From assembly GCF_003387475.1 (NCBI RefSeq), contig NZ_QUNO01000006.1, positions 62,001 through 126,000 on the forward strand: 64,000 nucleotides of DNA, read 5' to 3'. Source of the DNA: Kutzneria buriramensis. GTDB lineage: Bacteria; Actinomycetota; Actinomycetes; Mycobacteriales; Pseudonocardiaceae. Both the position numbers and the translations under genes were made by a program. The notes below the pieces were generated by a model, which had not been told where the DNA came from, ran no database searches, and saw only the letters and a list, made by a program, of their open reading frames with translations. Of the stretch, positions 38,638 through 55,921 are shown in pieces; the stretch's first letter is position 1, and each line of letters starts with the position of its first letter.

Positions 38638-39315
38638 TCAGGATCCGGTCATGGCGTCTTCCTGAAGTACGTCTTCGGCGGCGCGGTCGAGCGTTTCCAG
38701 TACCCAGTTCTGGAACTCCACGCCCGAGTGGTTTGCCGCACGCTGCCAGATTTTCATTCTGTTGTTCGGTACCTCGATGCGCCCGTCGATGGATGTCGGC
38801 GGCTTGGAATCCTCCGTTTCGCCGTTGCGCACGTTCTGTATGGCGTTGCGGAGCTGTTTGGTCGTCCACTTGGCTCGCTCGGCCTTGTCGAGGAGCCATT
38901 CCTGGTCGGTGAGCGGTAACGAGGCGACCTCGGCGTGGTGCTGAAAACTCAGTTTGGGTCGACGTCGCTTCAGGTCGAACCGTCGGGCGACCCAGGCGTA
39001 GTTGCGCAGCGTCTGGTATCGAAGGCCGACCGCTCGGATCGCCCGTTCGTAGCGGTCCGAGTAGTTCTTCTTCCCGAACACCAGCCAGTCGCCGAGCCAC
39101 CAGGCCGACGAGTCGACGATGTGTGCGAGTTGACGTCCGGTGCGTTCCCAGTCCTCGAAGCTGAGGCCGTTGGGGATCTGGAGGCCCACGCCCATGATGA
39201 GGACCTTCCCTCGACCCTGTGCGGTTTGATCAGTTTCTGTTGATGAACTATTTTGTGCCAAGTTGTCGCCCTGGGGCCTGGTAGTGCTCTTGATTAATCC
39301 GTGCAATTCAATCAA
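38638..39315 (-). CDS. LmbU-family pathway regulator
   Basis: A 225-residue regulator matching LmbU (lincomycin), NovE and HmtD-type proteins: LSFEDWERTGRQLAHIVDSS, AWWLGDWLVFGKKNYSDRYE, LRYQTLRNYAWVARRFDLKR, LSFQHHAEVASLPLTDQEWL. These control antibiotic genes through a C-terminal DNA-binding region. TTG 39315 is the likely start: GGGGGG lies 5 bases before it, and codon 7 is then TTA, the rare codon read by the bldA tRNA. ATG 39195 (MGVGLQIPNG) is an alternative that drops the TTA. The gene is visibly less GC-rich than its neighbours, suggesting transfer. It should be the pathway activator of the NRPS cluster to the right. Confidence 0.88.
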   Translation of the reverse strand: MIELHGLIKSTTRPQGDNLAQNSSSTETDQTAQGRGKVLIMGVGLQIPNGLSFEDWERTGRQLAHIVDSSAWWLGDWLVFGKKNYSDRYERAIRAVGLRYQTLRNYAWVARRFDLKRRRPKLSFQHHAEVASLPLTDQEWLLDKAERAKWTTKQLRNAIQNVRNGETEDSKPPTSIDGRIEVPNNRMKIWQRAANHSGVEFQNWVLETLDRAAEDVLQEDAMTGS

Positions 39316-39864
39316 AAGAACCCCCCAATGGTGATAGCTCCCCCCGTTGCCGAGTGTTGCAGCTCACTAACTTCAGGTTAAGCGGCCAAATGGGGGAACT
39401 TTGACAGTGTTCAAGTACTCACGGTAGCGGCGTATGGGTTGCGTAAAAACGTGTCTACACCTCTTGACTCGCCGTGTCGCAGCCTCCGGTGAAGATCGTG
39501 GATCGAGAGTGATGTCGGTGTCGAATTGGATCGTCGGTGTGATGTGCCAGCCGCCGTTCGCCGTCCTATTTCGGCGGTGAGTCGCAGGTCAGTTCGGGTG
39601 CGGCGGAGGATTGCTCGAGGTGGCGCATGGCCGCGGCCGGCGGCGCTGCGCGGGTGTCGTGCGGGTGGCGCTGTCAGTGGCACGGCGGGCTGCCTGCTGG
39701 CGCTCATTGCGAAAAACCGTACGGGCCGGTCCCCTGAGTGCGCCTCAGGTCGCTACTGAACGTGATGTCCGTATCGCGTGCTTGATCGATACGGAAGCGT
39801 GACCATTGGTGACCTGTCCGGTCGACCGGACAGCGTCTCATCGCATGGGTCCCGAACGGTGGCG
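39316..39864. promoter_or_regulatory. Intergenic region upstream of the LmbU-family gene
   Basis: About 550 bp without a protein-like frame. The part next to the LmbU-family start (39240-39450) is AT-rich and should hold its promoter. The remainder gives only Arg-rich shadow frames. It ends with the palindromic operator at 39814-39833. Confidence 0.5.
39814..39833. promoter_or_regulatory. Palindromic operator, copy 1
   Basis: CTGTCCGGTCGACCGGACAG is a perfect 20-bp palindrome centred on GTCGAC. It belongs to the set TGTCC-N-GTCGAC-N-GGACA also found at 47531-47552 and 49294-49315. It lies just past the MerR gene stop and about 500 bp upstream of the LmbU-family start. Confidence 0.65.
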
Positions 39865-40593
39865 TCAGGCCGGCCGGATCCGGTCGGCGCACAGCTGATG
39901 CAGCCGTCGCCAGGGCGCGGGCGAGTCGTCGAGCTGCCTGTCCAGCAGCGCGGTGATCGAATGCCGCTTCGCATCCGCGGCGGGCGTCCGCCGCCCCCGA
40001 TCGCCGTACGCGACGCAGCTGTCGGCGAGGTCGGTGAGCCGCTCGTCGTTCGGATCCCACTCGCTCGACCGGTCCACCTCGAGGTAGAGCGATTGCAGCT
40101 CCGGGTCGTCCAGGGCCGACCGCTTCTCGCGTATCCATGTCGGCATGTCGTCGGGGAAGAGCGTCGCCAGCAGGATGCAGATGTCTCGCTCCGCCTGTAC
40201 CAGCTTGTCGCTGACACCGATGTCGCGCAGTCGGTCGAGGCAGCGCAGGGCTCCGTCCGGCAGCACGAGCCGGTCGCCGGGGGCGAGGCCGGCGATGCGG
40301 CGCCGACGGCGTTCCAGTTCGCCGATTTGCGCCGAGAGATCCTCGTCGATCTGTGTGACTATCCGCGCGAATTCCACGGGCTCGGCGCCGAGTAGATCGT
40401 CAATTCGGGCGAGGGGAACGCCGGCGTCGGACAGCGCCCGGATGCGTTTCAGGGCGATGATCGACCGTGCGTCGTAACGTCGATGGCCCAATGCGTCGCG
40501 GTCCGGCTCCGGTAACAGGCCGCGCTTGAGGTAATACAAGACGGTGCGCACGGTCACACCTGTGGATGCGGCGAGTTGACCTGTCGTGAGCAT
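39865..40593 (-). CDS. MerR-family regulator
   Basis: A 242-residue MerR-type regulator. The winged HTH is N-terminal (MLTTGQLAASTGVTVRTVLY, then LGHRRYDARSIIALKRIRAL), then the dimerisation coiled coil (LSAQIGELERRRRRIAGL). The 110-residue C-terminal part (LQSLYLEVDRSSEWDPNDER) is a larger effector domain seen in many actinobacterial MerR proteins, without the Cys pattern of metal sensors. GAGAAGG precedes the ATG. It is divergent from the halogenase operon and may control it, possibly in response to a small-molecule ligand. Confidence 0.9.
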   Translation of the reverse strand: MLTTGQLAASTGVTVRTVLYYLKRGLLPEPDRDALGHRRYDARSIIALKRIRALSDAGVPLARIDDLLGAEPVEFARIVTQIDEDLSAQIGELERRRRRIAGLAPGDRLVLPDGALRCLDRLRDIGVSDKLVQAERDICILLATLFPDDMPTWIREKRSALDDPELQSLYLEVDRSSEWDPNDERLTDLADSCVAYGDRGRRTPAADAKRHSITALLDRQLDDSPAPWRRLHQLCADRIRPA

Positions 40594-40880
40594 GTGCCTT
40601 CTCCTTCTCGGAGACCGGGAACGCGCCGGCGGCAACGCCTCGTGAAGCGGCAAGGCGAACGTCAAGTCGATCTTACCGCCGGGCGTGCGGCCGCGGGTAC
40701 CTGCTCGCCGTCACATCACACCGGCGCCCGCGGCGCGTGCATACGACGGTGTGCTGCGTGACCGCAAGGTGTGACCGGGATCCCGGTCTTTTATAGGCGC
40801 CTTATGGGAGTCGGATGGGGCCGAATGCCAGGGTCGGTGTCTCAGTCGTGGCCACTGGCCGTAAGAACCGAGGTGCTGAC
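40594..40880. promoter_or_regulatory. Divergent merR/halogenase promoter region
   Basis: Contains a perfect 16-bp palindrome GACCGGGATCCCGGTC (40773-40788) followed by TTTTATAGG, a plausible -10 for the halogenase operon. The dyad sits where MerR proteins bind. GTGTGCTGCGTGACCGCAAG just upstream may include the -35. Predicted from position and symmetry only. Confidence 0.5.
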
Positions 40881-42446
40881 GTGGGTGCTCAGGGTCCAGA
40901 TCAGGTCGTCATCGTCGGCGGCGGCACCGCCGGGTGGATGACCGCGTCGTATCTGAAGGCAGCGTTCGAGGACCGGATATCAATCACACTTGTCGAATCT
41001 GGCAAGATCGGAACCATCGGGGTCGGCGAGGCGACCTTCAGCGACATCCGGCACTTCTTCGAGTTCCTGAATCTCCGCGAAGAGGATTGGATGCCGGCCT
41101 GCAACGCGACCTACAAGCTGGCCGTGCGATTCCAGGACTGGCGTCGGCCGGGGCATCACTTCTATCACCCGTTCGAACAGTTGCGATCGGTCAACGGCTT
41201 TCCCCTGACCGACTGGTGGCTGAACGGTGGGCCGGGGGAGCGGTTCGATCAGGACTGCTTCGTCATGGCGTCGCTGTGCGACGCCGGGCGCAGTCCCCGC
41301 TACCTGGACGGCACGCTGCTCGACCAGGAAGCCCGCGCGGTCACCGACGAGCCCTCGGGGCTGACCATGTCGGAGCACCAGGGCAAGACCCAGTTCCCGT
41401 ACGCCTACCACTTCGAGGCGGCGCTGCTGGCCAAGTACCTGGCCGCGTACGCCGTGGACCGCGGCGTACGGCACATCGTCGACGAGGTCCAGGACGTGCG
41501 CCTGGACTCCCGGGGCTGGATCGACCACATCGTCACCAAGGAGCACGGCGAGATCCGCGGCGACCTCTACATCGACTGCACCGGGTTCCGCGGCGTGCTG
41601 CTGAACAAGGCACTCGAGGTGCCGTTCATGTCCTATCAGGACACGCTGCCCAACGACAGCGCGGTCGCCCTCCAGGTCCCGCTGGACATGAAGAAGCTGG
41701 GCGTCCGTCCGTACACGACCGCGACCGCGCAGCGGGCCGGCTGGATCTGGACGATCCCGCTGTTCGGCCGGATCGGCACGGGTTACGTGTACGCCAAGGA
41801 CTACTGCACGCCGGAGGAGGCCGAGCGCACGCTGCGCGAGTTCGTCGGCCCGGAGGCGGAGTCGGTGGAAGCGAACCACATCCGGATGCGGATCGGCCGC
41901 AGCGCGCAGTCCTGGAAGAACAACTGTGTCGCCGTCGGGCTGTCGAGCGGCTTCGTCGAGCCGCTGGAGTCGACCGGCATCTTCTTCATCCACCACGCGA
42001 TCGAGCAACTCGTGAAGTACTTCCCGGCCGCCGACTGGAACCCGAAGACGCGCGACATGTACAACGCCGCGGTCGCGCACGTGATGGACGGGGTCCGGGA
42101 GTTCCTGGCGGTGCACTACCGGAGCGCGGCCCGTGACGACACGCAGTACTGGAAGGACGCCAAGACCCGGCCGGTGCCGGACGCGCTCGAGGAGCGCCTC
42201 GAGCGGTGGAAGGCGCAACTGCCGGACAGCGAGAACATCTTTCCCTACTACCACGGGCTGCCGCCCTACTCGTACATGTGCATCCTGCTCGGCATGGGCG
42301 GCATCCCGCTGCGGTCGTCGCCGGCGGTCGGCCTCTCCGACGACACCGCCGCGCAGAAGGAGTTCCAGGCGATCCGGGGCAAGGCACAGCATCTCGTCGA
42401 CGCGCTGCCCACCCACTATGACTACTTCGCCGAGATGAGGTCGTGA
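40881..42446 (+). CDS. FADH2-dependent tryptophan-type halogenase
   Basis: A 521-residue flavin-dependent halogenase. It has the FAD loop VVIVGGGTAGWMTASYL, TIGVGEATFSDIRHFF, the catalytic lysine in CNATYKLAVRFQDW, the diagnostic GWIWTIPLFGR (W.W.IP) and EPLESTGIFFIHHAIE with the Glu that positions substrate. I start at GTG 40881 (GAGGTG upstream) because this puts the lysine at residue 79, exactly as in PrnA and RebH; ATG 40815 is also in frame. The enzyme makes HOCl from FADH2, O2 and chloride and transfers Cl through the Lys to an aromatic ring, usually free tryptophan. The partner flavin reductase is two genes downstream, and the stop overlaps the antiporter start (GTGA). Confidence 0.95.
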   Translation: MGAQGPDQVVIVGGGTAGWMTASYLKAAFEDRISITLVESGKIGTIGVGEATFSDIRHFFEFLNLREEDWMPACNATYKLAVRFQDWRRPGHHFYHPFEQLRSVNGFPLTDWWLNGGPGERFDQDCFVMASLCDAGRSPRYLDGTLLDQEARAVTDEPSGLTMSEHQGKTQFPYAYHFEAALLAKYLAAYAVDRGVRHIVDEVQDVRLDSRGWIDHIVTKEHGEIRGDLYIDCTGFRGVLLNKALEVPFMSYQDTLPNDSAVALQVPLDMKKLGVRPYTTATAQRAGWIWTIPLFGRIGTGYVYAKDYCTPEEAERTLREFVGPEAESVEANHIRMRIGRSAQSWKNNCVAVGLSSGFVEPLESTGIFFIHHAIEQLVKYFPAADWNPKTRDMYNAAVAHVMDGVREFLAVHYRSAARDDTQYWKDAKTRPVPDALEERLERWKAQLPDSENIFPYYHGLPPYSYMCILLGMGGIPLRSSPAVGLSDDTAAQKEFQAIRGKAQHLVDALPTHYDYFAEMRS

Positions 42447-43729
42447 CAGTGCTCAACCTGCTCGCCACGGGCGCACATGTGGCGGCGGCGCTGGTCGTCG
42501 TGCTCGCGATCGCCTGGCTGGGCGCGATCGCGGCGCGGCGGCTGCGCCAGCCGGAGGTGATCGGGGAGATCATCGCCGGCCTGCTGGCCGGGCCGGCCGC
42601 GCTGGCACTGCTCGGGCACGCCACGTTCACCGTGGTGCTGCCGGCCGAGATCATCGACATCCTGAAGACATGCTCCGAGGTTGGCCTGATCCTGTTCCTG
42701 GTCGGCCTGGCGCACAAGCTCCGCATCGGCGCGCGGCAGGTGCCGAGGGGGACGGCCGCGTGGGTCGTCGTCGGCGGCATCGTGCCGGCCCTGGCGTCGG
42801 GTGTGGTGTTCGCGTGCTGGATCATCTTCGCGGGAGAGCCCGGCGAGCGAGGCGGCGCGCCGCTGCCGGCGTTCCTCATGATGTGTGCGGTGGTGCTCTC
42901 GATCACGGCGGTGCCGGTGCTGGCCCGGATCCTCGCCGATCGCGGCATCGCCGACACGCGCGAGGGACGGTTGTCGATGACGGCGGCCGTCGTCATCGAC
43001 ACGGTCGGCTGGCTGCTGCTGTCCGTCGCGGTCGCGCTCGGGGCCGGCCGGCCGGACGGTGTCCTCCGGGCCTTCGCCGTGCTGGTCGGCGGACTGCTGG
43101 TCGCGCTGGCAGTGCGGTGGGCGTTGCGCACCAAGGCGGCGAACGCCCTGTGCGGACGGTGGCCAGCGGTCACCGCGGTGCTCCTGGCCGCGATCGCGCT
43201 GACGGTCGCATTCTCAGTGGAGAAGGCGGGTCTGACCGACATCTTCGGCGCGGTTCTGGTCGGACTCGCCGTGCCACCCGACGGGCCGTGGCGGAAGATC
43301 GTCTCGGGTGTGAGTCGGGTGGGCCGGGCACTGGTTCCGGTGTTCTTCGTGGTGACCGGGCTGACCGTGTTCGCGACCGGCCTCGGCTCGCTGCCGTGGG
43401 TGCTGATGCTCGTCGCGATCCCGTTGGCGGTCCTGGGAAAGGGCGGTGGCAGCTATCTCGGGACTCGCTTGGCCGGAGAGCCCCGGATCACCGCGGCGAA
43501 GGTCGGAGCGCTCATGAACACGAGGGGGCTGACCGAGCTGATCGTCCTCAAAGTCGGCTACAGCGCGGGAATTCTCACGCTGCCGGTGTTCGTCGCGCTT
43601 GTCTTGACGGCAGTCGTGACAACCGTGATGACCGGCCCCCTGCTGTTGTTCCTCGACCGCGGCGCGGGACGTGCACAGCCGGCCCCCGTGCCGGTCACCG
43701 TCGAATCCCTGGACGGGGCTCATGACTGA
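42443..43729 (+). CDS. CPA2 cation/proton antiporter of the cluster
   Basis: A 428-residue Na+(K+)/H+ antiporter with about twelve transmembrane segments: LRQPEVIGEIIAGLLAGPAA, CSEVGLILFLVGLAHKLRIG, and VLSITAVPVLARILADRGIA are CPA2 signatures. GTG 42443 overlaps the halogenase stop, and its 3' end overlaps the flavin reductase start by 8 bp, so all three are made together. Similar antiporters occur in glycopeptide-type clusters with an unproven link to export or resistance. Possible roles are product self-protection or ion balance around halide use; the sequence does not decide. Confidence 0.9.
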   Translation: MTVLNLLATGAHVAAALVVVLAIAWLGAIAARRLRQPEVIGEIIAGLLAGPAALALLGHATFTVVLPAEIIDILKTCSEVGLILFLVGLAHKLRIGARQVPRGTAAWVVVGGIVPALASGVVFACWIIFAGEPGERGGAPLPAFLMMCAVVLSITAVPVLARILADRGIADTREGRLSMTAAVVIDTVGWLLLSVAVALGAGRPDGVLRAFAVLVGGLLVALAVRWALRTKAANALCGRWPAVTAVLLAAIALTVAFSVEKAGLTDIFGAVLVGLAVPPDGPWRKIVSGVSRVGRALVPVFFVVTGLTVFATGLGSLPWVLMLVAIPLAVLGKGGGSYLGTRLAGEPRITAAKVGALMNTRGLTELIVLKVGYSAGILTLPVFVALVLTAVVTTVMTGPLLLFLDRGAGRAQPAPVPVTVESLDGAHD

Positions 43730-44252
43730 CTCGATCGACGCGACACCCCGGGGCGGTGTCGAGGCGCCCGACCGGTTCCGGACGATGATGCGCGGGTTCC
43801 CCACCGGCGTCGCCGTCGTGACAGCCACGGACCTCGCCGGACAGCCGTGGGGCATGACATGTTCGTCGGTGTGCAGCGTGACACTGGATCCGCCGACGCT
43901 GCTGATCAGCCTGCGCTCGGCGAGCCCGACGCTCGCGGCGATACTCGGCTGCGGCCGCTTCACAGTGAACCTGTTGCACGACAGGGCATGGCGCACCGCG
44001 GAGCTGTTCGCCTCCGGCAACCCGGGCCGTTTCGACCTGGTCGATTGGGACCTGGACGCCGACTCCGCCGGCCCGCACCTGGGCTCGGACGCCCACGCCG
44101 CCGCCGACTGTCGAGTGGGGACCACCGTGCCGGCCGGCGACCACACGGTGGTCTTCGGCGAGGCGTACCGGATCACCCTGCGGCCGGGGCATCCGCTGCT
44201 GTACGGGCTGCGCGGCTACCGGAGGTGGCCGAGCGCCGAACCGACGAACTGA
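43722..44252 (+). CDS. Flavin reductase partner of the halogenase
   Basis: A 176-residue flavin reductase of the HpaC/RebF type. Signatures are MMRGFPTGVAVVTATDLAGQ, GMTCSSVCSVTLDPPTLLIS, the flavin-binding NLLHDRAWRTAELFA and, near the end, VVFGEAYRITLRPGHPLLY. It reduces FAD or FMN with NADH and supplies the FADH2 that the halogenase needs. Start ATG 43722 lies inside the end of the antiporter gene. It converges on the SARP gene with only 5 bp between stop codons. Confidence 0.93.
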   Translation: MTDSIDATPRGGVEAPDRFRTMMRGFPTGVAVVTATDLAGQPWGMTCSSVCSVTLDPPTLLISLRSASPTLAAILGCGRFTVNLLHDRAWRTAELFASGNPGRFDLVDWDLDADSAGPHLGSDAHAAADCRVGTTVPAGDHTVVFGEAYRITLRPGHPLLYGLRGYRRWPSAEPTN

Positions 44253-44257
44253 GCGGC

Positions 44258-45016
44258 TCAGCCGACGAGCAGCAGGCGGTCCAGGACCGGGTCGGCGGTC
44301 AGGATCGCCTGGTGCACCTGGCGCAGCAGCGGCCCGGGCTCGATGCCGAGCTCCTCGGCGAGCATCCGCCGGCGCCGGTCGTACAGCGCCAGGGCCTCGG
44401 CTTGCCGGTCGCCCCGGTACAGCGCGGTCATCAACTGGGCGCAGAAGCGTTCCCGCAGCGGGTACTGCCCGACCAGGCGGGTGAGTTCGGGCAGCACCCG
44501 CCCGTGCATGCCGACCACGAGATCTGCCTCGATACGGCTCTCCAGGACGGACAGCCGCGCCTCCTCGATCGCCGGGCCCTCGGCCGCCGCCAGGTGCTCG
44601 CTGACGTCGGCGAGCGCCGGCCCGCGCCACAGGGCCAGGCCGGCCCGCAGCAGCCGGCCGGCTTCGTCGAACCGGCCGGCCAGCTGCGCCGCGCGTCCAC
44701 GCGCCGCCAGGTTCTCGAACTCCAGGAGGTCCAACCGCGCGCCCTCGAGCCGCATCAGGTAGCCCGACGAGTGCCGGATGATGCTCGCCCGCCCGCCGAG
44801 TGCTTTGCGCAGCCGGGAGACCTGGGTGTAGAGCTGCGCGCTGAGCGTCGCCGGGGGGCGGTCGCCCCACAGCGCGGCGCTCAGTTTCGGGTCGGCCAGC
44901 AGCGAGTCCCCGGAGATGAGCAGGGCGGCCAGCACAGTGCGCTGTTTCGTGCCGTCCAACGTGACGCCGGCACCGCCGTCCAGCACCTCGACCGGACCCA
45001 GGATTCGGTACTCCAT
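44258..45016 (-). CDS. SARP-family pathway regulator
   Basis: A 252-residue Streptomyces antibiotic regulatory protein. The N-terminal OmpR-like winged helix (YRILGPVEVLDGGAGVTLDG, LSAQLYTQVSRLRKALGG) is followed by the bacterial transcriptional activation domain (LLEFENLAARGRAAQLAGRF, ALALYDRRRRMLAEELGIEP). The length is that of DnrI/ActII-ORF4, so it lacks the AfsR ATPase extension. SARPs activate biosynthetic genes by binding direct heptamer repeats near -35. It should act with the LmbU-family and MerR regulators on this cluster. Confidence 0.93.
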   Translation of the reverse strand: MEYRILGPVEVLDGGAGVTLDGTKQRTVLAALLISGDSLLADPKLSAALWGDRPPATLSAQLYTQVSRLRKALGGRASIIRHSSGYLMRLEGARLDLLEFENLAARGRAAQLAGRFDEAGRLLRAGLALWRGPALADVSEHLAAAEGPAIEEARLSVLESRIEADLVVGMHGRVLPELTRLVGQYPLRERFCAQLMTALYRGDRQAEALALYDRRRRMLAEELGIEPGPLLRQVHQAILTADPVLDRLLLVG

Positions 45017-45066
45017 CCAACGACCTCACAGACCCCGTACGGACTAGCGCGGCTGGCCGGACCGGG

Positions 45067-46086
45067 TCATGCGATCGGCGTGGCCTCGATGGCGTGCACT
45101 CCGGACGGCTCGCCGCCGACCAGCACGTCGCTGACCGACGTGAGCGTGAACCCCGCGGCGGCGAACAGAACCCGGTACTCGTCCTCGGTGCGCTCGGCGC
45201 CGCCGCATCCCACCAGGACACCGAGGTCGTCGTCGGCCCACGGATGGCCCGCGGTCATGATCGGCGGCATCACGGTCTCCACGATGAACAGCCGGCCGCT
45301 GTCCGGGATCACGGCACGGCAGTGCCCGAGGATCGTGATGACCTGGTCGTCGTTCCAGTCGTGCACGATGTACTTGAGGACGTAGGCGTCAGCACCGGAC
45401 GGCACCGACGTGAAGAAGTCGCCACCGAGGACGTCGCATCGATCCGCGACGCCGGCGGCGGTCAGCGTCGGCGGCGCGGTCGCGACGGCGGTGGGCAGGT
45501 CGTACAGGATGCCGTGTAGGCCTGGCGTCGCCGTCAGGATGCCGGCGATCAACGTGCCGTCGCCGCCGCCGATGTCCGCCACCGTGCCGAACCGAGCGAC
45601 GTCGCACGCCTCGGCGATGCCGGGGGCGAGCGCGCGGGTCTGGTCGCCGCCCAGGCGGTGCATCTTCACCGAGCCCTCGGGGTCCTGCAACAGCCACTCG
45701 AGCGGCGTCCACCCGGTCACCGGTTGCCGAGACGGTTCGCCGGTGCGCACGATCGTCGCCAGGTCACCCCAGGCGCGCCAGAGCTCCGGCGCGGCCGACA
45801 GCAGCACCGCGTCCCGCATGGAATCGGGTCGGTCCGCACACAGCTGACCGCCCTCCTCGGTCAGCTCGTACGTCTCGGTGTCCAGCTGGGTGGCCAGGCC
45901 GAGACCGACCAGGGAACGCAGCAGCTTGCGCAGTGCGCCCGGGTCGGTGCCCGTCTCCTTGGCGATGTCCGCGCAGGCGCGCGGGCCCGCGGCCAGCGCC
46001 TCCGCGATACCGAGCTCCACCGTGACATAGAGAGTCTTGGCGTGCATGTAGCCGGCCGCCATGTGCACCAGCGATGGCCGTTCCAT
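45067..46086 (-). CDS. SAM-dependent O-methyltransferase
   Basis: A 339-residue class I methyltransferase of the AdoMet_MTase_2 (hydroxyindole/flavonoid O-methyltransferase-like) family. An N-terminal winged-helix dimerisation domain (ELGIAEALAAGPRACADIAK, TGTDPGALRKLLRSLVGLGL) precedes the Rossmann domain with FGTVADIGGGDGTLI and LKYIVHDWNDDQVITIL, where HDW contains the family's catalytic His. It should methylate a hydroxyl of a precursor or of the peptide, perhaps the group introduced by the neighbouring P450, 40 bp upstream in the same operon. GGGGAA precedes the ATG. Confidence 0.92.
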   Translation of the reverse strand: MERPSLVHMAAGYMHAKTLYVTVELGIAEALAAGPRACADIAKETGTDPGALRKLLRSLVGLGLATQLDTETYELTEEGGQLCADRPDSMRDAVLLSAAPELWRAWGDLATIVRTGEPSRQPVTGWTPLEWLLQDPEGSVKMHRLGGDQTRALAPGIAEACDVARFGTVADIGGGDGTLIAGILTATPGLHGILYDLPTAVATAPPTLTAAGVADRCDVLGGDFFTSVPSGADAYVLKYIVHDWNDDQVITILGHCRAVIPDSGRLFIVETVMPPIMTAGHPWADDDLGVLVGCGGAERTEDEYRVLFAAAGFTLTSVSDVLVGGEPSGVHAIEATPIA

Positions 46087-46126
46087 CGTCGGTTCCCCTT
46101 TCGTGGTTGTGGGGCAAGGGATGTCG

Positions 46127-47326
46127 TCAGCCGATGCGGACCGGCAGCCGGCGCGCCCCCGTCATGTCCATGACCGGGAAGAACGACGGCTGGTCGTCCG
46201 GATCGAGCCGGAGCGTCGGGAACCGGTCCAGCAGGATGTTCAGGGCGACGCGGCCCTCCAGCCGAGCCAGCGGCGACCCGACGCAGTAGTGGCTGCCGCG
46301 GCTGAAACCGATGTGCGGGTTGGGATCGCGGGTGAGGTCGAACTCGTCGGGCCGCTTGAACTGGCGCTCGTCCCGGTTCGCCGCGCCGAGCCACACCACC
46401 AGCATCTGGTCCTTGGGCACCGGGAAGTCGCCGAGCTTGACATCGGTGGTGGTGGCCCGTGAGGTTGCGGGGAAGGGGCTCAGGAATCGCAGCGACTCCT
46501 CGATCGCCGACGGCACCAGCGCGCGGTCGGCGCGGACGCGGGCCTCCTGCTCCGGGTTGGCGTCCAGGCACAGCACCGTGTTGCCCAGCAGCAGCGTGGT
46601 GGTGATGTGGCCGGCGAACAGCACGATGGACGAGAAGCCGGCCACTTCCTCGTCGGACAGCCGCTGGCCGTCGACCTCGGCCTGGACCAGCTTGGTGAGC
46701 AGGTCCTCGCGCGGGTGCTTGCGGCGGTCCCGGAGGTGGTCGAGCAGGTAGCTGTTGAGCTGCCTGGCCTGCTCGGCCAGGATCTGCATGTTGGTGGCGC
46801 CGTCGTCGTCGCCGCTGTCCTGGATGGTGAACGGGCTCTTGGTCTCGGTGATCTTGTACGTCCAGTCCTTGAGCAGCGTGCGGTCGCTGCGGGGCAGGCC
46901 GAGCAGCTCGGCGATCACGATCACCGGCAGCGGGAACGCCACCGCGTCCACGAAGTCGAACCCGGGCTTGCCCTCGACCGCGTCGATCAGCTCGTGGGTG
47001 ATCTCGGCGATCTGCGGCTCGAGGTCGGCGACCACCCGGGGCGTGAACGCGCTCGCGATCAGCTTGCGCATGTTGGTGTGCTCCGGCGGATCCATGTGCG
47101 TGACGTCGCCGTGGTTCATCGACTCGTCGACCTCGTACGGGTAGAGCCGTGCGGTGTCGGAGGAGAAGACCGCCGGATCGCTGAGGACCTCGGCCGACTC
47201 CGGATATCCGTAGATGTGCCAGATGCCCCGGTTCTCGTCGAACACGACGGGACGCTCCGGCTGGATCCCGCGCAGCCAGATGAGATCCGGGTGGACACCC
47301 CAGGCGTCGGGGATGGTCATGGCCAT
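46127..47326 (-). CDS. Cytochrome P450
   Basis: A 399-residue bacterial P450. The ExxR motif is EESLRFLSPFP, the PERF-like region FKRPDEFDLTRDPNPHIGFS and the haem ligand is Cys348 in FSRGSHYCVGSPLARLE. The I-helix reads FAGHITTT: the usual acidic residue before Thr (AG.(E/D)T) is Ile, as I recall for EryK-type P450s, so it should still be active. FSRG replaces the common FG.G. AAGGAGAA lies 8 bases before ATG 47326. Likely role: hydroxylation of an amino acid, free or carrier-bound, or of the peptide. The divergent promoter with DDAH holds operator copy 2. Confidence 0.95.
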   Translation of the reverse strand: MAMTIPDAWGVHPDLIWLRGIQPERPVVFDENRGIWHIYGYPESAEVLSDPAVFSSDTARLYPYEVDESMNHGDVTHMDPPEHTNMRKLIASAFTPRVVADLEPQIAEITHELIDAVEGKPGFDFVDAVAFPLPVIVIAELLGLPRSDRTLLKDWTYKITETKSPFTIQDSGDDDGATNMQILAEQARQLNSYLLDHLRDRRKHPREDLLTKLVQAEVDGQRLSDEEVAGFSSIVLFAGHITTTLLLGNTVLCLDANPEQEARVRADRALVPSAIEESLRFLSPFPATSRATTTDVKLGDFPVPKDQMLVVWLGAANRDERQFKRPDEFDLTRDPNPHIGFSRGSHYCVGSPLARLEGRVALNILLDRFPTLRLDPDDQPSFFPVMDMTGARRLPVRIG

Positions 47327-47697
47327 CGATATTTCTCCTTAATACCGGCATGCGGTGGGAACCTGTGCACGGTTTGCTACGGTGACCCGGGCCATTTCCG
47401 GTTTCCCGGGCCGGCGGAATCGCCGAGCCGCGGCCGCCGTCGACGATACCCCGTGCCAGGCCTGATCTATTGGGTCACGGTCACCGGTGGCGGGCTCGCG
47501 TCAGCGCGGATAATCCTGCTCGGTGGGCCGGTTGTCCTGTCGACAGGACAACGCGGGGCCACCCGTCACGGGACGTGACGATATCGGCCAGCATCGACGG
47601 CGGGCGTGGAATTGCCCGACATTCCCTCGGATCTCGCGTTCCCCGGCGGCAGCGGAAACACCGGAACGGCTATCGCACCCGACTCGTGAGGACTGAC
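47327..47697. promoter_or_regulatory. Divergent P450/dimethylargininase promoter with operator copy 2
   Basis: A 371-bp divergent region. At 47531-47552 the half-site GTTGTCCTGTC is followed directly by its exact inverse GACAGGACAAC, a perfect 22-bp palindrome centred on GTCGAC. It matches copy 1 (39814) and copy 3 (49294). No gene is supported in this stretch. Confidence 0.75.
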
Positions 47698-48528
47698 ATG
47701 AACGACGCGACCAGGACGATGAGACGCCGCACCTACCTGATGTGCCGGCCGCTCCACTTCGACGTCACCTACTCGATCAACCCGTGGATGGATCCCGGCC
47801 GGCCGACCTCGCCGGACGTCGGGTTGACCCAGTGGAAGTGGCTGCACGACCAGCTGGTGGACCTCGGGCATCGGGTCGTGCTGATCGAGCCGGAGCCGGG
47901 TCTGCCGGACATGGTGTTCGCCGCGAACGGCGCGATCACCGTCGACGGCCGGGCGCTGGTCGCGCGGTTCCGGCACGACTGCCGGACCGGGGAGTCGCGG
48001 GCCTATCTCGAGTGGTTCCGCCGCAACGGCTGGGCCGAGGTCGCGCAGGCGCGGCACGTCAACGAGGGCGAGGGGGACTTCCTCCTGGTGGGCGACCAGT
48101 TCCTGGCGGGATCCGGGTTCCGCACCGAACCCCGCGCGCACGAGGAGGTGGCGACCTTCTTCGGCCGGGACGTGGTCGGCCTGACGCTGATCGACCCGCG
48201 GTTCTACCACCTCGACACCGCGCTCGCCGTGCTCGACGACGACGAGGTCATGTACTACCCGCCGGCCTTCTCGCCGGAGAGCCGCGAGCGGCTCGCCGCG
48301 GACTTTCCCGACGCCGTCCTGGTGGGTGAGGCCGAGGCTGAGGCGTTCGGGGTCAACGCGGTGTCCGACGGCGTGCACGTCCTGCTTCCCGAGCACGGCG
48401 GCCGGCTCGCGGGCCAGCTTGCCGAGCGCGGCTACGTGCCGATCGGCGTCGACATGTCGGAGCTGCTCAAGGCCGGTGGCGCGGTGAAGTGCTGCGCCAA
48501 CGAGCTGCGCGGCGGTCCGGACGACTGA
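47698..48528 (+). CDS. Dimethylargininase-family (DDAH) amidinohydrolase
   Basis: A 276-residue protein of the DDAH/arginine-deiminase superfamily. It shows the substrate loop YSINPWMD, PDMVFAANGAI, EGEGDFLLVG, the catalytic His171 in FYHLDTALAVL and the nucleophilic Cys265 or Cys266 in AVKCCANEL. Such enzymes convert arginine or N-substituted arginines to citrulline plus an amine or ammonia. GAGGACTGAC precedes the ATG. Inside an NRPS cluster it could supply citrulline or a modified ornithine as a building block; it could also be an arginine-catabolism gene recruited here. It shares operator copy 2 with the divergent P450. Confidence 0.9.
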   Translation: MNDATRTMRRRTYLMCRPLHFDVTYSINPWMDPGRPTSPDVGLTQWKWLHDQLVDLGHRVVLIEPEPGLPDMVFAANGAITVDGRALVARFRHDCRTGESRAYLEWFRRNGWAEVAQARHVNEGEGDFLLVGDQFLAGSGFRTEPRAHEEVATFFGRDVVGLTLIDPRFYHLDTALAVLDDDEVMYYPPAFSPESRERLAADFPDAVLVGEAEAEAFGVNAVSDGVHVLLPEHGGRLAGQLAERGYVPIGVDMSELLKAGGAVKCCANELRGGPDD

Positions 48529-48534
48529 CCATCG

Positions 48535-48562
48535 GCTGGCTGCCGGCAACCCGGCAGCCAGC
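48535..48562. terminator. Bidirectional hairpin terminator
   Basis: A perfect 12-bp stem (GCTGGCTGCCGG with CCGGCAGCCAGC) and a CAAC loop, lying between the convergent ends of the dimethylargininase and PaiB-like genes. It has no T-tract but is very stable and symmetric, so it should serve both directions. Confidence 0.8.
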
Positions 48563-48568
48563 GCGCCG

Positions 48569-49231
48569 TCACTCCGCGTCCGCGAGCCTGCCCATCATGG
48601 CCGCGATCGCCTTGTGGTTGCTGGATTCCCGCTCGGCGAAGGACTCCCGCACCCGCGCGCGGACGTCGGCGTCCTGCTCCTGGCTGAGCTTGAACATGCC
48701 GTCGACGTGGGAGACCGTGACGCGGAACGCGCCGACCGCCGGCACGATGCGACGGAAGTACTCGACCGACTCGGACATCGCCCAGCCGGCGCCGAAGCGG
48801 GCCTCGAACGCGCGCACGGTGGCCATCACCGTCTCAAGGGTCTCGTCGCCGGCCGCCTCGGCGTCCACTCGGCGCAGCAAGCCGCGCGCGTGCACCGCAG
48901 TGAAGTTCCAGGTCGGGGCGGCCGGGGTGCGCTGGTAGAGCGTCGGCGACACGTAGGCGTGCGGGCCGGTGAAGACGATCACCACCGGCGTCTCCGACTC
49001 CAGCGCCGCCCAGTGCGGATTCGACCGGTTCATGTGGCCCCACAGGGTGGCCCCGACGATCTCGCCGGGCGGCCGGTCCGGGTCGTGCGGGTCGGGAATG
49101 ACCGGCACATGGGTCGCAAAGGGGCCGGCCGGTCCGTTACCGTTGCTCACCAGCTCGGCCAGCGGGTTCTCGCGGATCAGGTCGGTCATCCACGATTCGT
49201 TCGGTTCATGGTAATGGTGTGGAACGAACAT
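48569..49231 (-). CDS. PaiB-like FMN-binding protein
   Basis: A 220-residue protein of the PaiB/FMN-binding negative regulator family. It starts MFVPHHYHEPNESWMTDLIR and has GATLWGHMNRSNPHW, VIVFTGPHAYVSPTLYQRTP and VPTWNFTAVHARGLLRRVD-type text (WNF.AVH), all family signatures of the split-barrel flavin fold. In Bacillus PaiB affects sporulation and enzyme genes; in antibiotic clusters its role is undefined and could be a flavin-linked oxidase or repressor. GAGAGGAA precedes ATG 49231. It is divergent from the first NRPS gene. Confidence 0.9.
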   Translation of the reverse strand: MFVPHHYHEPNESWMTDLIRENPLAELVSNGNGPAGPFATHVPVIPDPHDPDRPPGEIVGATLWGHMNRSNPHWAALESETPVVIVFTGPHAYVSPTLYQRTPAAPTWNFTAVHARGLLRRVDAEAAGDETLETVMATVRAFEARFGAGWAMSESVEYFRRIVPAVGAFRVTVSHVDGMFKLSQEQDADVRARVRESFAERESSNHKAIAAMMGRLADAE

Positions 49232-49293
49232 GCGGATTCCTCTCTCGGTATTCAGAACACCGTGGGATCGCCCGCAAATACTAAGGATGCCCG

Positions 49294-49315
49294 GTTGTCC
49301 TGTCGACGGGACGGC
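49294..49315. promoter_or_regulatory. Palindromic operator, copy 3
   Basis: GTTGTCCTGTCGACGGGAC, continuing GGC, shares its left half exactly with copy 2 (47531) and has two changes in the right half (GACGGGACGGC for GACAGGACAAC). It sits between the divergent PaiB-like gene and the first NRPS gene, 148 bp before the NRPS start, in the expected promoter zone. Confidence 0.7.
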
Positions 49316-49462: not shown

Positions 49463-52400
49463 ATGAGTTCGGATGGTGTTGTGCAGATGGACGTGTTGTC
49501 TGGCGCCGAGTGGGAACGCGTCGTCGTGGGGTGGAACGAGACGTCGTACGGAGTTCGTGACGCGACCCTGGGCGCGGTCTTCGAGCGGCAGGTGGCCCGC
49601 GGCGCGGACCGTCCGGCCGTGGTCTTCGAAGGCCGGACATTGACCTACGGCGAGTTCGACACCCGGGTGAATCGGGTCGCCCACTGGCTGCTGGACAACG
49701 GTGTGGAGCCGGGTTCGGTGGTGGGAGTGCGCCTACCCCGGTCCTTCGACCTGGTGGTCGCGATCTACGCGATCGTGCGGGCAGGCGCGGTGTTTCTGCC
49801 GATGGAGACCGATCTGCCCGCCGAGCGCGTGGCCTGGATGGTCGCCGACGCGGAGCCCGCGCTGGTGATCGAGGAGATGCCGGACGCGGCGGGGTACCCC
49901 GCCGAGAACCCCGGCGTCCGCGTGTCGGCCGACCACGCCGCCTACGTGATCTACACGTCCGGATCGACCGGTCGGCCCAAAGGCGTGGTGGTGTCGCACC
50001 GGTCGATCGTGAACCGGATCGTGTGGGGCCACGCCGAGTACGGCATCGGCCGCGAGGTCCGGATGGTGCTGAAGACGTCCGTCGGGTTCGACGTGTCCGT
50101 GCCCGAGCTGTTCTGGCCGCTGCTGGTAGGCGGCGTGCTGGTGATTGCGCGTCCGGACGGCCACAAGGATCCCGAGTACCTCGCCGGCCTGATCCGCGAG
50201 CAGAACGTCACGGACATCGACTTCGTCCCGTCCATGCTGGCGGCCTTCGTGGCCGAGCCGGCGGCGGCGCAGTGCCGGAGCCTGCGCCGGATCGAGGCGG
50301 CCGGCGAGGCGCTTACCACGGAGCTGGCCCAGCGGTGCGCCGCCGTGCTGCCGTGGGTGGAGCTGCACAACCTTTACGGGCCGACCGAGGCTGCCGTCGA
50401 GGTCACCGCATGGCAGTACCAACCGGCGTCCGACGCCGGGGCGGGCGTGCCGATCGGTCGGCCGGTGTGGAACACCCGGGTGTACGTGCTGGACTCCGCG
50501 TTACGGCCGGTGGCCCCCGGGGTTCGCGGCGAGCTGTATCTGGCCGGCGTGCAGCTGGCGTCGGGGTACCTGAACCGCACGGCGCTGACGGCGGAGCGGT
50601 TCGTGGCCAACCCGTTCACGCCTGGCGAGCGGATGTACCGGACCGGGGACGTGGTGAGCTGGCGTGACGACGGCGCCCTGGAGTACGTCGGCCGGGCCGA
50701 TTTCCAGGTGAAGGTGCGCGGTTTCCGGATCGAGCCCGCGGAGATCGAAGCGGCGCTGCTGGCCCATCCCCGGATCGCCGGGGCCACCGTCGTCGCCCGC
50801 GCCGACCGCGGCCGCACCCAGCTGGTCGGCTACGTCGTGCCGGCTGCCACCGAGGCCGCGGACTTCGCCTTCCGCACCGGTCCCAGCGCGGCCGAGCTGC
50901 GCGACTTCCTCCGCCGACGCCTGCCGGAGTTCATGGTCCCCGCCACATTCGTGGCACTGGAACGGTTTCCGCTGACGCCGAGCGGGAAGGTGGACCGGGG
51001 CGCGTTGCCGGCACCGGTCTTCGCGGACCAGACCTACCGCGCACCCGGCACTCCCAGGGAGGAGATCCTGGCGGCCGCGTTCGCGGAGGTGCTCGGACGG
51101 CCCCAGGTGGGCGTCGACGACGACTTCTTCCTCGTGGGCGGCGACAGCATCCAGGCCATCCAGGTCGTGGCGCGCGCACGGGCACACGGCGTCGTGGTGA
51201 GCGCGGGCGAGATCTTCCGGCACCGAACCGTCGCCGAACTCGCGGCAGTGGCGACCGATGGGCACGGCGCCGGAACCGCGCCGGCCGCGCACGACGACGG
51301 CGTCGGGTGGATGCCGCAGTTGCCGGTCGCCCGGTGGTACCGCGAACTCGGGCGGGGATTCGAGCGGTTCCTCCAGGCCGTGCTGCTCAAGCTGCCGGAG
51401 GGCGTCGACGCGGCCGGCCTCACGCGCACGCTCACCGCGGTGCTGGATCGGCACGACGTGCTGCGGTCGCGGCTGGTGGCCGACGGCATGGTGGTGGACC
51501 CGCCGGGTTCCGTCGCCGTCGACCAGCTCATCCACCGTGTCGAGTGCGACGGGCGATGGGACGGCGAGGCCTGGCGTGGGCTCGCGCTGCGCGAGCTGGA
51601 GGCGGCGGCCGGCCGGCTGGATCCGTCGGCCGGGATCGTCGCCCAGTTCGTGTGGTTCGCCCCGACCGAGCCGGGGCCGGGGCGGCTGCTGATGGCCCTG
51701 CACCACCTCGTGGTCGACGGCGTGTCCTGGCGCATCCTGATGCCCGACCTCGCGATGGCCTGGAAGCAGGCGCGGGCCGGTCGGGAGCCGTCCCTGTCTC
51801 CGGTGCCGACGTCGATGCGCCGGTGGGCGCAGGACCTGATGACCGAGGCGCACACAGCCCGCCGGTCGGCGGAGCTCCCGTTATGGCGGTCCATCGTGGA
51901 TGGACCTGACCCGGCGCTGGGTGTCCGCCGGCTCGACCGGGCCACGGACGTGATGTCCACGGTGCACAGGGTTTCCGTGGAGTTGCCGGTGTCCGTGACC
52001 GAGGCGGTGCTGACGACGGTGCCGGCGGCGTTTCACGGTCGGGTCGACGACGGGTTGCTGGCGGGGTTGGCGCTGGCGGTCACGAAGTGGCGTCGCGCCA
52101 GGGGAGTGGACGAGCCAACCACGCTGCTGCGGCTGGAAGGGCACGGGCGCGAGGAGGAGACGGTGGCCGGCGCGGACCTGTCCCGCACCGTGGGGTGGTT
52201 CACGAGCGTCTTCCCCGTCCGGCTCGACCTGTCCGGGATCGACCTCGACGACGCGTTCGCCGGCGGCACCGCCGCCGGGACGGCGCTCAAGACGGTCAAG
52301 GAGCAGATGCTGGCGGTGCCCGACCGGGGCATCGGCTACGGACTGCTGCGGCACCTGAATCCCGAGACCGCCGCGGTGCTGCGGGAGTTCCCACTGGGAC

Positions 52401-55400
52401 AGATCGGATTCAACTACCTGGGGCGGTTCTCCGCTGCCGACATGCCCGAGAGCCTGCGCGGGCTCGGCTGGACGCGGACGGACGAACTGGTCGAACTCGC
52501 CGAGCTCGACGCGGCGCACGGCCCGGACATGCCCGCACCCTGCGAGATCGACATCAACGCCACCGTCACCGACTCTGCCGACGGCCCCCGGCTCCGCGCG
52601 GTGTTCGCCGCGCCGACCGGTGTGCTGTCCCCGACCGACGTCGAGGAGCTCGCCGACCTCTGGTGCGCGGCCCTGCACGGGCTGGTGAGGCATGCCGCCG
52701 AGCCCGGCGCCGGCGGGTTGACCCCGTCGGACGTGTTGCTGGACAGGGTGAGCCAGGGCGAGATCGACACGTGGGAGGAGCGCTTTCCGGTACTGGCCGA
52801 CGTGTGGCCGCTGACGCCGCTCCAGAACGGTTTGCTGTTCGAGTCCCTTGTGGACGATCCGAGTCGGGACGCCTACCGGGTGCAGTACACGCTGCGGCTG
52901 TCCGGGCCGGTCGACGCGCGCCGGCTGCGCGCGGCCGGCCAGGCGCTGCTCGACCGGCACGCCAGCCTGCGCGCGGCGTTCGTGCCCAACACCGCAGGCG
53001 ATCTCGTGCAACTCGTCGTCGACGGCGTCGTCCTGCCATGGCGGGAAGTCGATCTGAGCGGCGAGGAGCGCCAGGCTGAGGCGCTGCGGCGAGTTCTGGC
53101 CGAGGAGCTGTCCACGCCCTTCGATCTGACGGCGCCGCCGGTGCTGCGGCTGGCCCTCGTCCGCATGGCGGAGGACCGGTGGGAGCTCGTGCTGACGTCG
53201 CATCACGTGCTGTTCGACGGCTGGTCGATTCCGGTCATGATGCGGGACCTGCTGCGGCTCTACGCTCGCGACGGAGACGGTTCGGAACTGCCGCCGGCGC
53301 GCGGCTACCGGGACTTTCTGGCGTGGCTGCGACGGCAGAACCGCGACGCGTCATCCCGCGTCTGGGCCGAGGAGTTCCAGGGATTCGACGAGCCGACGAT
53401 GCTCGCCTCCGGCGTCAGCGGCGCGAAATCGGGCATCGGGGCGATCGACGTTCCGATGGCGCCCGACGTCGCCCGGAGGCTGTCCGACCGCGCCGCCGAG
53501 CTGCGCGTCACGCTGAACACCGTGGTCCAAGGCGCTTGGGCGGTCCTGTTGGGACAGTTGACCGGCCGACGGGATGTCGCCTTCGGGGCCACGGTGGCGG
53601 GCCGGCCGCCCACACTGGCCGGCGCGGAGTCCATGGTCGGGATGTTCCTCAACACGGTGCCGGTGCGGGTGCGGTGGCAGCCGGGCGACACGCTCGCCGA
53701 ACTGATGGCCGGCTTGCAGCAGCGGCAGAGCACGCTGCTCGAAGACCACCACCATCCGCTGGCCGACATCCAGCGGGCCACCGGGCTACCCGCGCTGTTC
53801 GACACCTACGTCGCCTTCGAGTCCTTCCCGCTCGACGGCGCCGGCATGGAGGCGGCGAGCGAGGAGGCCGGAATCGCCTTCACCGGGCTGGACCTCTTCG
53901 TCACGACGCACTACCCGCTGACCGTGTTGGCCCTACCCGGCAACGACTCCCTCCGGCTCGTGCTGCACCACCAACTCGCAGCGTTCGACCACGACACCGC
54001 CGCGTCCATCGCCAAACGATTCGCAGCGGTGTTGGCGGAGCTTGCTTCCGACCCGCAGCGACGGGTCGACGGGGTCGACCTGCTCACGCCCTTGGAGCGG
54101 AGCCGGCTGCTGCCAGCGGTCGGTGAGCCGGCAGCAGGGGAGACGATCCCTGACCGGTTCGAGCGGCAGGCCAGCGCGACGCCGGACGCCGTGGCGCTGG
54201 TCACCGAGGACGGTGAACTCACCTTCGGTGAACTCAACGACCGGGCGAATCGGTCGGCGCACGGCCTGATCGCGCTCGGCATCGGGCCGGGGTCGCTGGT
54301 GGCGGTCGCGTTGCCGCGAACGGCCGACCTGATCGTGACGTTGCTGGGAGTGCTCAAGTCCGGCGCCGGGTACCTGCCGGTCGACCCGGCGTACCCGAGC
54401 TCTCGGCTGGCGGACATCATCCGCGACGCCGGCCCGTCCCTCACCGTCGCCGATGCGTCGACCCGGGACGTGCTGCCCGACAACGACGTCCCCCTGCTGC
54501 CCCCGGCCCGGATCGCTGGCCGTCACGCGCACGACCCCGTCGACACGGACCGGATTCGGCCGCTCAGCCCGGACGACGTCGCCTACGCGATGTACACCTC
54601 CGGGTCGACCGGCCGCCCGAAGGGCGTGCTGATCACGCACCGAAACGTGACCAACTGCGTGCCGGGACTCGTGGCCAGCCTGGGAGTGCCGCCGGGTTCG
54701 CGGATGCTGGCGGCGACGTCGGTCAACTTCGACGTGTCGGTCTTCGAGATCTTCTCGACGCTCTGCACCGGCGGCACCGTCGAGCTGGTTCGGGACGTGT
54801 CGGTTCTCGGACTTCGGGGCGGCTGGTCGGGCGGCGTCATCAGCTCGGTGCCGACGGTCTTCGGCGAGCTGCTGGACGAGCTGGCGGGCTCGATCGACGT
54901 GCGGACCCTGGTGTTCGCCGGCGAGGCGCTGCCCGGCTCGCTGGTGCGGCGAGTCCGGAACGCGATCCCCGGGGTCCGAGTGGTCAACGGCTACGGGCAG
55001 AGCGAAACCTTCTACGCCACCACCTTCTCCCTCGCCGCCGCGGACGGCTGGGACGGCGCCGTGCTGCCGATCGGCACGCCGTTGGACAACGTGCGTGCCT
55101 ACGTGCTCGGCCCCGGCCTCGCCCCGGTGCCACCGGGAGTGGCCGGGGAGCTGTACGTCGCCGGGGCCTCGGTAGGTCGCGGCTACCACCGTCGTCCGGA
55201 TCTGACCGCAGACCGGTTCGTCGCGGATCCCTTCGGGCCGCCCGGATCCCGGATGTACCGCACGGGCGACCGCGCCCGCTGGCGCCCCGACGGTCCGCTG
55301 GAATACCTGGGGCGGGACGACACGCAGGTGAAGATCCGCGGTGTCCGCGTCGAGCCCGCCGAGGTCGAGGCCGTGCTGGCCGCGCATCCCGACGTCAGCC

Positions 55401-55921
55401 AGGCGATCGTCCTGGCCCGCGCGGGCCGCGGCGCGAGCACGGCCAAGCGATTGGTGGCCTACGTCGTCGCCGGCGGCCCGGTGGACGGCCTGCGGGAGTT
55501 CGTGTCCGAGCGGCTGCCGGACGTCATGGTGCCGTCGGCATTCGTCGAGTTGGACGGCTTTCCCTTGCTGCCCAACGGAAAGCTGGACCGCAAGGCGCTG
55601 CCGGAGCCGGCGGCCGCCCACCGCGGGTACCGCGCGCCGCGGACCCCGGGCGAGGACGTGCTGTGCGGCCTGTACGCCGAGGTGCTCGGCCTGGACCGGG
55701 TCGGCGTCGACGACGACTTCTTCGAGCTGGGCGGACATTCGCTGGTGGCGATCCGCCTGGTCAGCCGGCTGCGGGCGACGCTCGGCGTCGAGGTGCCGAT
55801 CCGGACCGTGTTCCGGCACCGCACGGTCGCCGAGCTGGCCCGCGAACTCGACACCGCCGCGGCCGCCGCGAGCCGGCCACGCCTGCGCAAGATGACCGAC
55901 CGAGGAGTGGAATCGCCGTGA
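49463..55921 (+). CDS. NRPS, initiation module A-T-E plus C-A-T
   Basis: A 2152-residue nonribosomal peptide synthetase. A1 comes first with no condensation domain, so this is an initiation module: [11 protein letters not shown] near residue 163, carrier [10 protein letters not shown] near 559. Then an epimerisation domain ([14 protein letters not shown] near 748), a condensation domain of the D-acceptor type ([19 protein letters not shown] near 1247), A2 ([11 protein letters not shown] near 1710) and T2 ([10 protein letters not shown] near 2088). By alignment with GrsA I read the ten pocket residues as D-V-P-D-E-A-L-V-E-K for A1 and D-V-F-S-V-A-G-Y-A-K for A2. The acidic A1 pocket suggests a basic side chain; A2 resembles, from memory, piperazate-type codes. 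The start ATG 49463 has a weak ribosome site; ATG 49487 is possible. No MbtH gene is in view. Confidence 0.93.

Follow-up and report, generated by a model that had tools for sequence, protein, structure and literature searches.

Four palindromic sites in a nonribosomal peptide synthetase (NRPS) cluster of Kutzneria buriramensis are very probably operators of the cluster's own LmbU-family regulator, to which sequence comparison points as the candidate binder. Three of these sites (S1 to S3) lie in the window, the 64,000-nucleotide stretch that we analysed (NCBI RefSeq assembly GCF_003387475.1, contig NZ_QUNO01000006.1, positions 62,001 to 126,000), whose numbering is used below unless a contig is named, and the fourth (S4) lies beyond its right edge. 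We further consider it somewhat probable that LmbU-family regulators represent DNA-binding domains of the ParB/Noc type that antibiotic clusters have recruited, and that most of them read a single code, TGTCC-N-GNCGNC-N-GGACA, with the centres GTCGAC and GCCGGC as its two dialects.

Palindromic sites in the window and the genome

The original prediction had described three intergenic sites fitting TGTCC-N-GTCGAC-N-GGACA (hereafter the original pattern), and all three were recovered at the positions it gave. S1 (39814-39833), with the sequence CTGTCCGGTCGACCGGACAG, lies between the 3' end of a MerR-type gene and lmbU and is a perfect palindrome of 20 bp. S2 (47531-47552), a perfect 22-bp palindrome, and S3 (49294-49315) lie between divergent genes, as had been claimed: S2 between the P450-O-methyltransferase-SARP run on the minus strand and a dimethylargininase-like gene (DDAH) on the plus strand, and S3 between the gene for piperazate synthase (PZS; minus strand) and the NRPS genes (plus strand). 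The coordinates of S3 were right, but the "two changes" ascribed to it were a miscount, since it has one departure from the 16-base pattern (last A to G) and three unpaired positions over 22 bp. Long mechanical open reading frames (ORFs) would cover S2 (from TTG 47470) and S3 (from GTG 49684). The match to the dimethylargininase model, however, begins at residue 4 of the ORF that opens with ATG 47698, and several PZS relatives begin MFVP, which is 49231 here; with the start codons of DDAH and PZS set in this way, S2 and S3 are non-coding and the claim that all of the sites are non-coding holds.

A scan of the window at up to three mismatches returned only S1, S2, and S3 (0, 0, and 1 mismatches), in agreement with the earlier statement that the window has no further site. 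Shuffled windows gave a mean of 0.80 matches at three mismatches, and 7 of 100 reached three, so the loose scan is weak by itself and the strength of the sites lies in their exactness. Across the whole genome (11,968,322 bp, 65 contigs), the original pattern has three exact matches, S1, S2, and S4, within 44 kb of contig C6; the genome-wide scan that had been proposed as a check therefore placed all three exact matches in this cluster. S4 (C6:145692-145709; 83692 in window numbering) is 19.7 kb past the window's right edge and 44 kb from S1, ahead of a three-gene run, and adds a fourth site in the same NRPS cluster to the regulon operator that had been predicted. Only two matches carry one mismatch, S3 and one on contig C10, and at up to two mismatches the genome holds eight matches compared to three for the reversed pattern. 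The exact original pattern occurs in 6 of 390 genomes of a draw from the same family, with more than one match only in this genome.

Two observations on individual matches are recorded here. S4 sits inside a near-perfect palindrome of ~38 bp (L011:5682-5719) that starts just after a P450 stop codon. The lone one-mismatch match outside the cluster (C10:299219-299236, in L013) is outside the listed ORFs, scores 18.4 bits with the matrix described below, and lies near a gene resembling one for a single-strand binding protein; it is possibly an extra target or a chance match.

The motif at LmbU-family and piperazate synthase loci

We compared the motif with the presence of LmbU-family and PZS genes in other genomes. 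In G223, of the same genus, which carries a PZS 60 percent identical to that of the window together with an LmbU-family gene, 7 of the 10 genome matches at up to two mismatches fell within one 73-kb stretch around PZS/LmbU, and six of these seven were intergenic. G226, also of the same genus, carries a PZS (61 percent identical) and lacks an LmbU-family gene; the 100 kb around this PZS were without a match at up to three mismatches, and its seven matches at up to two mismatches lie elsewhere. G427, from another family, has three LmbU-family genes. The 140 kb around two of these contain four matches at up to three mismatches, all intergenic, and near the third are two three-mismatch matches, one intergenic and one coding. 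The variants at the G223 and G427 places relax the centre to GNCGNC, giving the relaxed-centre pattern TGTCC-N-GNCGNC-N-GGACA, from which S1 to S4 differ by 0, 0, 1, and 0 mismatches. In the K. buriramensis genome this pattern has 18 matches within one mismatch (4 for the reversed pattern); the exact ones are still S1, S2, and S4, while 14 of the 18 fall outside the cluster, each with one mismatch.

A single-sequence search of genome contigs with the window LmbU confirmed no relative, whereas a search with a 12-protein alignment of the family returned 391, of which the best 80 were kept, corresponding to 78 distinct loci (1,435,238 bp in total, with flanks of up to 10 kb per side). These loci lean towards piperazate clusters, PZS being present in 62 of the 78. 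Since the pattern came from the window and its centre had been relaxed via G223 and G427, these loci, and the 60 described below, were scored with the pattern in hand and not blind. The relaxed pattern gave 63 exact matches, 145 within one mismatch, and 197 within two, compared to means of 0.024, 1.2, and 22 (largest 1, 14, and 153) for 127 letter-permuted palindromes in the same loci, none of which equalled the real counts. Matches fell outside called genes in 63/63 exact, 81/82 one-mismatch, and 37/52 two-mismatch cases against a non-genic background of ~24 percent, and 68 of the 78 loci had at least one match within one mismatch. A weight matrix built from 131 unique sites of the 145 describes a site of ~27 bits; because it was trained on these loci, scores there are not a test. 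S1 to S4 score 25.5, 35.0, 30.5, and 34.2 bits, compared to 22.0 for the 5 percent point of the training sites.

For distance and geometry, 347 site-gene pairs were reduced to 238, in which the distance from site to start had a median of about 220 bp and a minimum of 39.5. The motif TANNNT was over-represented 22-23 bp after the start of the site, but all 13 of 13 cases face PZS and look like one homologous promoter that slipped past de-duplication, so we do not use them to argue for activation or for repression. Operator pairs exactly 24 bp apart occur at L106:638/662, L138:2789/2813, L139:3731/3755, L140:1025/1049, L129:7400/7424, and L153:2683/2707; this spacing suggests two dimers side by side, and the promoters concerned may be homologous.

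The frequency of PZS among the 78 loci raised the suspicion that the motif is tied to piperazate biosynthesis. We examined 315 genomes drawn from the genus to which Streptomyces aurantiacus (G635) belongs. LmbU exceeded the curated cut-off in 59 of them and gave any match in 76; the 17 genomes with only weak matches were scored as LmbU-negative. The exact relaxed motif was found in 81 of the 315 genomes, comprising 45/59 LmbU-positive and 36/256 LmbU-negative ones (Fisher 2.9e-20, uncorrected for relatedness). When PZS was searched in all 315 genomes at E 1e-40, the exact motif was present in 27/29 genomes with both genes, 1/8 with PZS alone, 18/30 with LmbU alone, and 35/248 with neither (p = 2.6e-5 for both genes versus PZS alone, and 1.2e-7 for LmbU alone versus neither). 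In the one PZS-only genome with the motif, the matches were on contigs other than the PZS contig, and the PZS flanks of all eight PZS-only genomes score at most 8.9 bits. The link to piperazate biosynthesis was therefore rejected: the motif tracks LmbU.

From the same draw we took 60 loci, one LmbU match per LmbU-positive genome plus an extra one from G824, and 15 of these loci overlap the earlier 78 in their DNA. PZS was in the flank of 17, and among the other 43 loci 29 had a site within one mismatch. Thirteen of the 43 belong to PZS-carrying genomes, with PZS in some just outside the flank, which leaves a set of 30 loci from PZS-free genomes. These 30 contained 13 exact sites and 20 within one mismatch, spread over 17 loci, while 209 permuted palindromes gave means of 0.01 exact and 0.46 one-mismatch matches there (largest 1 and 8). 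In the 45 loci that do not overlap the 78, we counted 24 exact sites and 51 within one mismatch (0 and 1 for the reversed pattern), and the best matrix score was at least 17 bits in 36 of the 45. An unguided count of 5-bp palindromic arms (gaps 4-20, ranked by loci) also placed TGTCC with a gap of 8 first in the 17 loci with PZS in the flank; in the other 43, the top three ranks went to three registers of this motif.

Seventeen of the 20 sites of the PZS-free genomes are intergenic, and the other three are exact matches inside lmbU itself (L215:10028, L220:10026, and L234:9966), ~220 bp into the family match. They come from three genomes, and the centre is GCCGGC in two and GTCGAC in the third, a change of letters that preserves the palindrome; each is possibly an intragenic operator. 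In S. aurantiacus, contig C14 holds both a second LmbU-family gene and five operator-like matches with at most one mismatch (C14:8309-57952).

The LmbU-family protein and the published LmbU site

The proposed binder is encoded at 38638-39315 on the minus strand, although its start codon is uncertain (TTG 39315 to ATG 39195). It matched the NF038070 profile with 228.9 bits (E 3.6e-68), above the curated cut-off of 125 bits. Its structural model has a predicted ParB/Noc-like helix-turn-helix domain followed by a C-terminal ribbon-helix-helix tail, with residues 1-33 modelled below pLDDT 50; the modelled domain resembles the ParB/Noc fold at 7-17 percent identity in ranks 1-12 among the matches listed. 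In contrast with ParB, Spo0J, and Noc, for whose N-terminal CTP-binding (CTPase) domain no Pfam match was obtained in the window LmbU at E 1, the protein would have a C-terminal ribbon-helix-helix. When the LmbU alignment was searched against PDB sequences, the best match reached only E 0.32. The recognition helix is nearly invariant across 50 sequences and includes R111 of the window protein. Elsewhere in this genome lies a further LmbU-family gene with 47 percent identity (C9:106005-106568), and a candidate operator, CGTCCCGCCGGCAGGACG, is found 21 kb from it in an intergenic position (C9:127423-127440; 21.8 bits; L077, L078).

LmbU-type regulators are reported in hundreds of actinomycetes (PMC6510168). 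LmbU of Streptomyces lincolnensis resembles the window protein in being a cluster-situated LmbU-family regulator with palindromic promoter sites. Its conserved site is given as CGCCGGCG at lmbA and lmbW, and SACE_5599, an LmbU relative, reportedly binds both of these promoters; LmbU is reported to bind lmbAp via its helix-turn-helix, to activate lmbA, and to repress its own promoter (PMC6510168). The residue needed for binding is R101, not R102 (PMC6510168), which by its helix position would match R111 of the window protein, the S. lincolnensis protein itself being outside our alignment. A 10-bp version of the site, TCGCCGGCGA, occurs at 176 places in the S. lincolnensis genome with uneven affinities, for which the authors suspect flanks or DNA shape (PMC10763038), and a review of November 2025 still gives the site as CGCCGGCG (PMC12945683).

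One variant of our operator has the published 8-bp core at its positions 6-13. S1 to S4 differ from the published site in having GTCGAC centres and the 5-bp arms TGTCC/GGACA, which go unmentioned in those parts of the S. lincolnensis literature that we had. Eighteen of the 20 sites at LmbU loci of PZS-free genomes have CGCCGGCG as their centre, so the published 8-mer appears to be the central part of an operator of 18-22 bp. A site in G427 (C1:5044099), TGTCTCGCCGGCGAGACA, consists of the 10-mer TCGCCGGCGA enclosed by the arms; together with the 18 centres, it indicates that the CGCCGGCG core and the GTCGAC form are two alternative centres of a single operator. Two further LmbU-family regulators, HmtD (himastatin) and Lun18 (lunaemycin), also belong to clusters with PZS and an ornithine N-oxygenase (PMC9866976), but the cited accounts, as far as they were available, give no operator for either; HmtD is described as a positive regulator whose mechanism is called unknown (PMC6510168). 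We found no other description of an LmbU operator in the literature searched, which included the accessible parts of PMC7014725, PMC7567792, PMC8546547, and PMC4351081 and left most subscription papers outside, and a search with operator 12-mers returned only papers that, judged by their listing, were unrelated.

Weighing the readings, and the proposed regulation

Several findings weigh against operators of LmbU. The published core CGCCGGCG is not present at S1 (GGTCGACC), S2 (TGTCGACA), S3 (TGTCGACG), or S4 (CGTCGACA), so these sites are classed as a variant and not as the published LmbU site, and their link to LmbU runs through the wider consensus. LmbU is also reported to regulate genes without the 8-bp core, besides repressing its own promoter (PMC6510168). 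S1 is 500-620 bp upstream of lmbU, depending on the start codon, which is far for a promoter site. The sole exact match to the original pattern in G427 (C1:4818266) is separated by ~200 kb from the closest LmbU gene that we found. In the draw of 315 genomes, 36/256 LmbU-negative genomes have an exact match and 14/59 LmbU-positive ones have none, and the Fisher p values are too small because these genomes are related. Sites within one mismatch are missing from the flanks of 10 of the 78 loci and of 13 of the 30 LmbU loci of PZS-free genomes, and the operator code may therefore not serve the whole family.

The original prediction had named a MerR protein beside the LmbU-family protein as candidate binder. 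The merR gene (39865-40665, minus strand; Pfam MerR_1 3.7e-15) adjoins S1, its stop codon lying 32 bp from the site, and MerR-type proteins bind palindromes of about the length of S1 to S4, their activators acting on long dyads between promoter elements. This candidate nevertheless appears highly improbable: MerR relatives (phmmer E 1e-5) were found in 0 of the 78 LmbU loci, 68 of which have sites, in a screen of our own gene calls that missed LmbU itself in 4 of the 78; the second set of 60 loci gave one MerR match, below 40 bits; and the region upstream of merR has no site at up to three mismatches. The SARP, which had been thought less likely, was rejected, as SARP boxes are direct repeats upstream of the -35 element and S1 to S4 are inverted repeats. 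Association differs from binding, and another regulator that simply accompanies LmbU genes could also bind the motif; SARP relatives do occur in 16 of the 78 loci. The regulator search covered the types encoded in the window's cluster, and among their relatives (SARP 16, TetR 2, MerR 0) only LmbU was general. The agreement of the motif centre in PZS-free genomes with the core that LmbU reportedly needs, and the reported binding of SACE_5599 to the same two promoters as LmbU (PMC6510168), also argue against such a companion, which we regard as unlikely.

The palindromes might instead be RNA hairpins, acting as terminators or attenuators. S1 and S4 do lie just past stop codons, and S4 is part of the longer palindrome noted above, but S2 and S3 are in divergent promoter regions, where no transcript end is expected, and no T run follows S4. 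Palindromes of the same letters in permuted order are not enriched, so it is the sequence and not the pairing that is conserved, and we give hairpins hardly any weight. Co-occurrence with LmbU loci favours the LmbU-family protein among the candidate binders named by the original prediction, and we infer that it physically binds S1 to S4.

By our own gene calls, the cluster extends from ~C6:100638 to 147810; families in its left part were assigned from Pfam, NCBIfam, and PDB matches. The left part reads LmbU and MerR (minus), a tryptophan halogenase, an antiporter, and a flavin reductase (plus), then SARP, O-methyltransferase, and P450 (minus), S2, dimethylargininase (plus), PZS (minus), and S3. 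The run behind S2 consists of a cytochrome P450 (46127-47326, minus; Pfam p450 1.4e-34), an O-methyltransferase (45067-46086, minus; Pfam Methyltransf_2 1e-37), and, as its last gene, the SARP-type regulator (44258-45016, minus; Pfam BTAD 6e-47), and on the other side of S2 is the dimethylargininase-like gene (47698-48528, plus; NF045659 413.6 bits, cut-off 300). In G223 (site 10099497; from translations), an operator is likewise followed by genes in the order P450, O-methyltransferase, SARP, and G731 (site 7326459; phmmer), whose PZS is the closest in the draw at 68 percent, shows this arrangement with two P450 genes.

The gene beside S3 (48569-49231, minus) had been called PaiB, a name that does not stand: by sequence it is a piperazate synthase (PDB 9ebk, E 1.6e-80, with 9ebk_B aligned over query residues 1-218 of 220), the PaiB entries 2ol5 and 9vyc reaching E 1.6e-24 and 2e-24, and so it is not a likely regulator. 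To the right of S3, translations alone suggest three large NRPS genes, the first at 49463-55921 (plus; an ORF call), followed by an ornithine N-oxygenase, an MbtH-like protein, a P450, and an adenylation protein (plus), then TetR (minus), transporters and a P450 (plus), S4, and genes for a carrier protein, a PhyH-like protein, and a thioesterase-like protein (plus). TTA codons occur in the frames of lmbU (38638-39195, at 38919), merR (39865-40557), and the first NRPS gene (49481-55921). Such codons are associated with timing through bldA, which they suggest here.

In the mechanism that we propose for the LmbU-family regulator, a dimer would place one helix-turn-helix, as modelled, on each half-site TGTCC-N-GNC. 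S1 would serve the region upstream of lmbU; S2, the P450-O-methyltransferase-SARP run and the dimethylargininase gene; S3, PZS and the long run from NRPS to tailoring genes; and S4, the carrier protein-PhyH-thioesterase run. Because LmbU activates lmbA and HmtD is called a positive regulator, binding would by analogy most likely activate the runs at S2 to S4, and the SARP encoded behind S2 would relay the signal as a second step; we infer activation rather than repression, and a SARP cascade, on these grounds.

The 8-mer is too short to predict regulons, given that even the 10-bp version matched 176 places with uneven binding, and the TGTCC/GGACA arms are a direct candidate reason for that unevenness. 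A site of ~27 bits would let LmbU targets be read from sequence and would help to choose silent clusters that an LmbU gene would wake. If one code with two dialects does hold for the family, a single sequence search would predict the regulons of LmbU proteins throughout the actinobacteria, and in a cell with several such proteins one of them could also act on the cluster of another.

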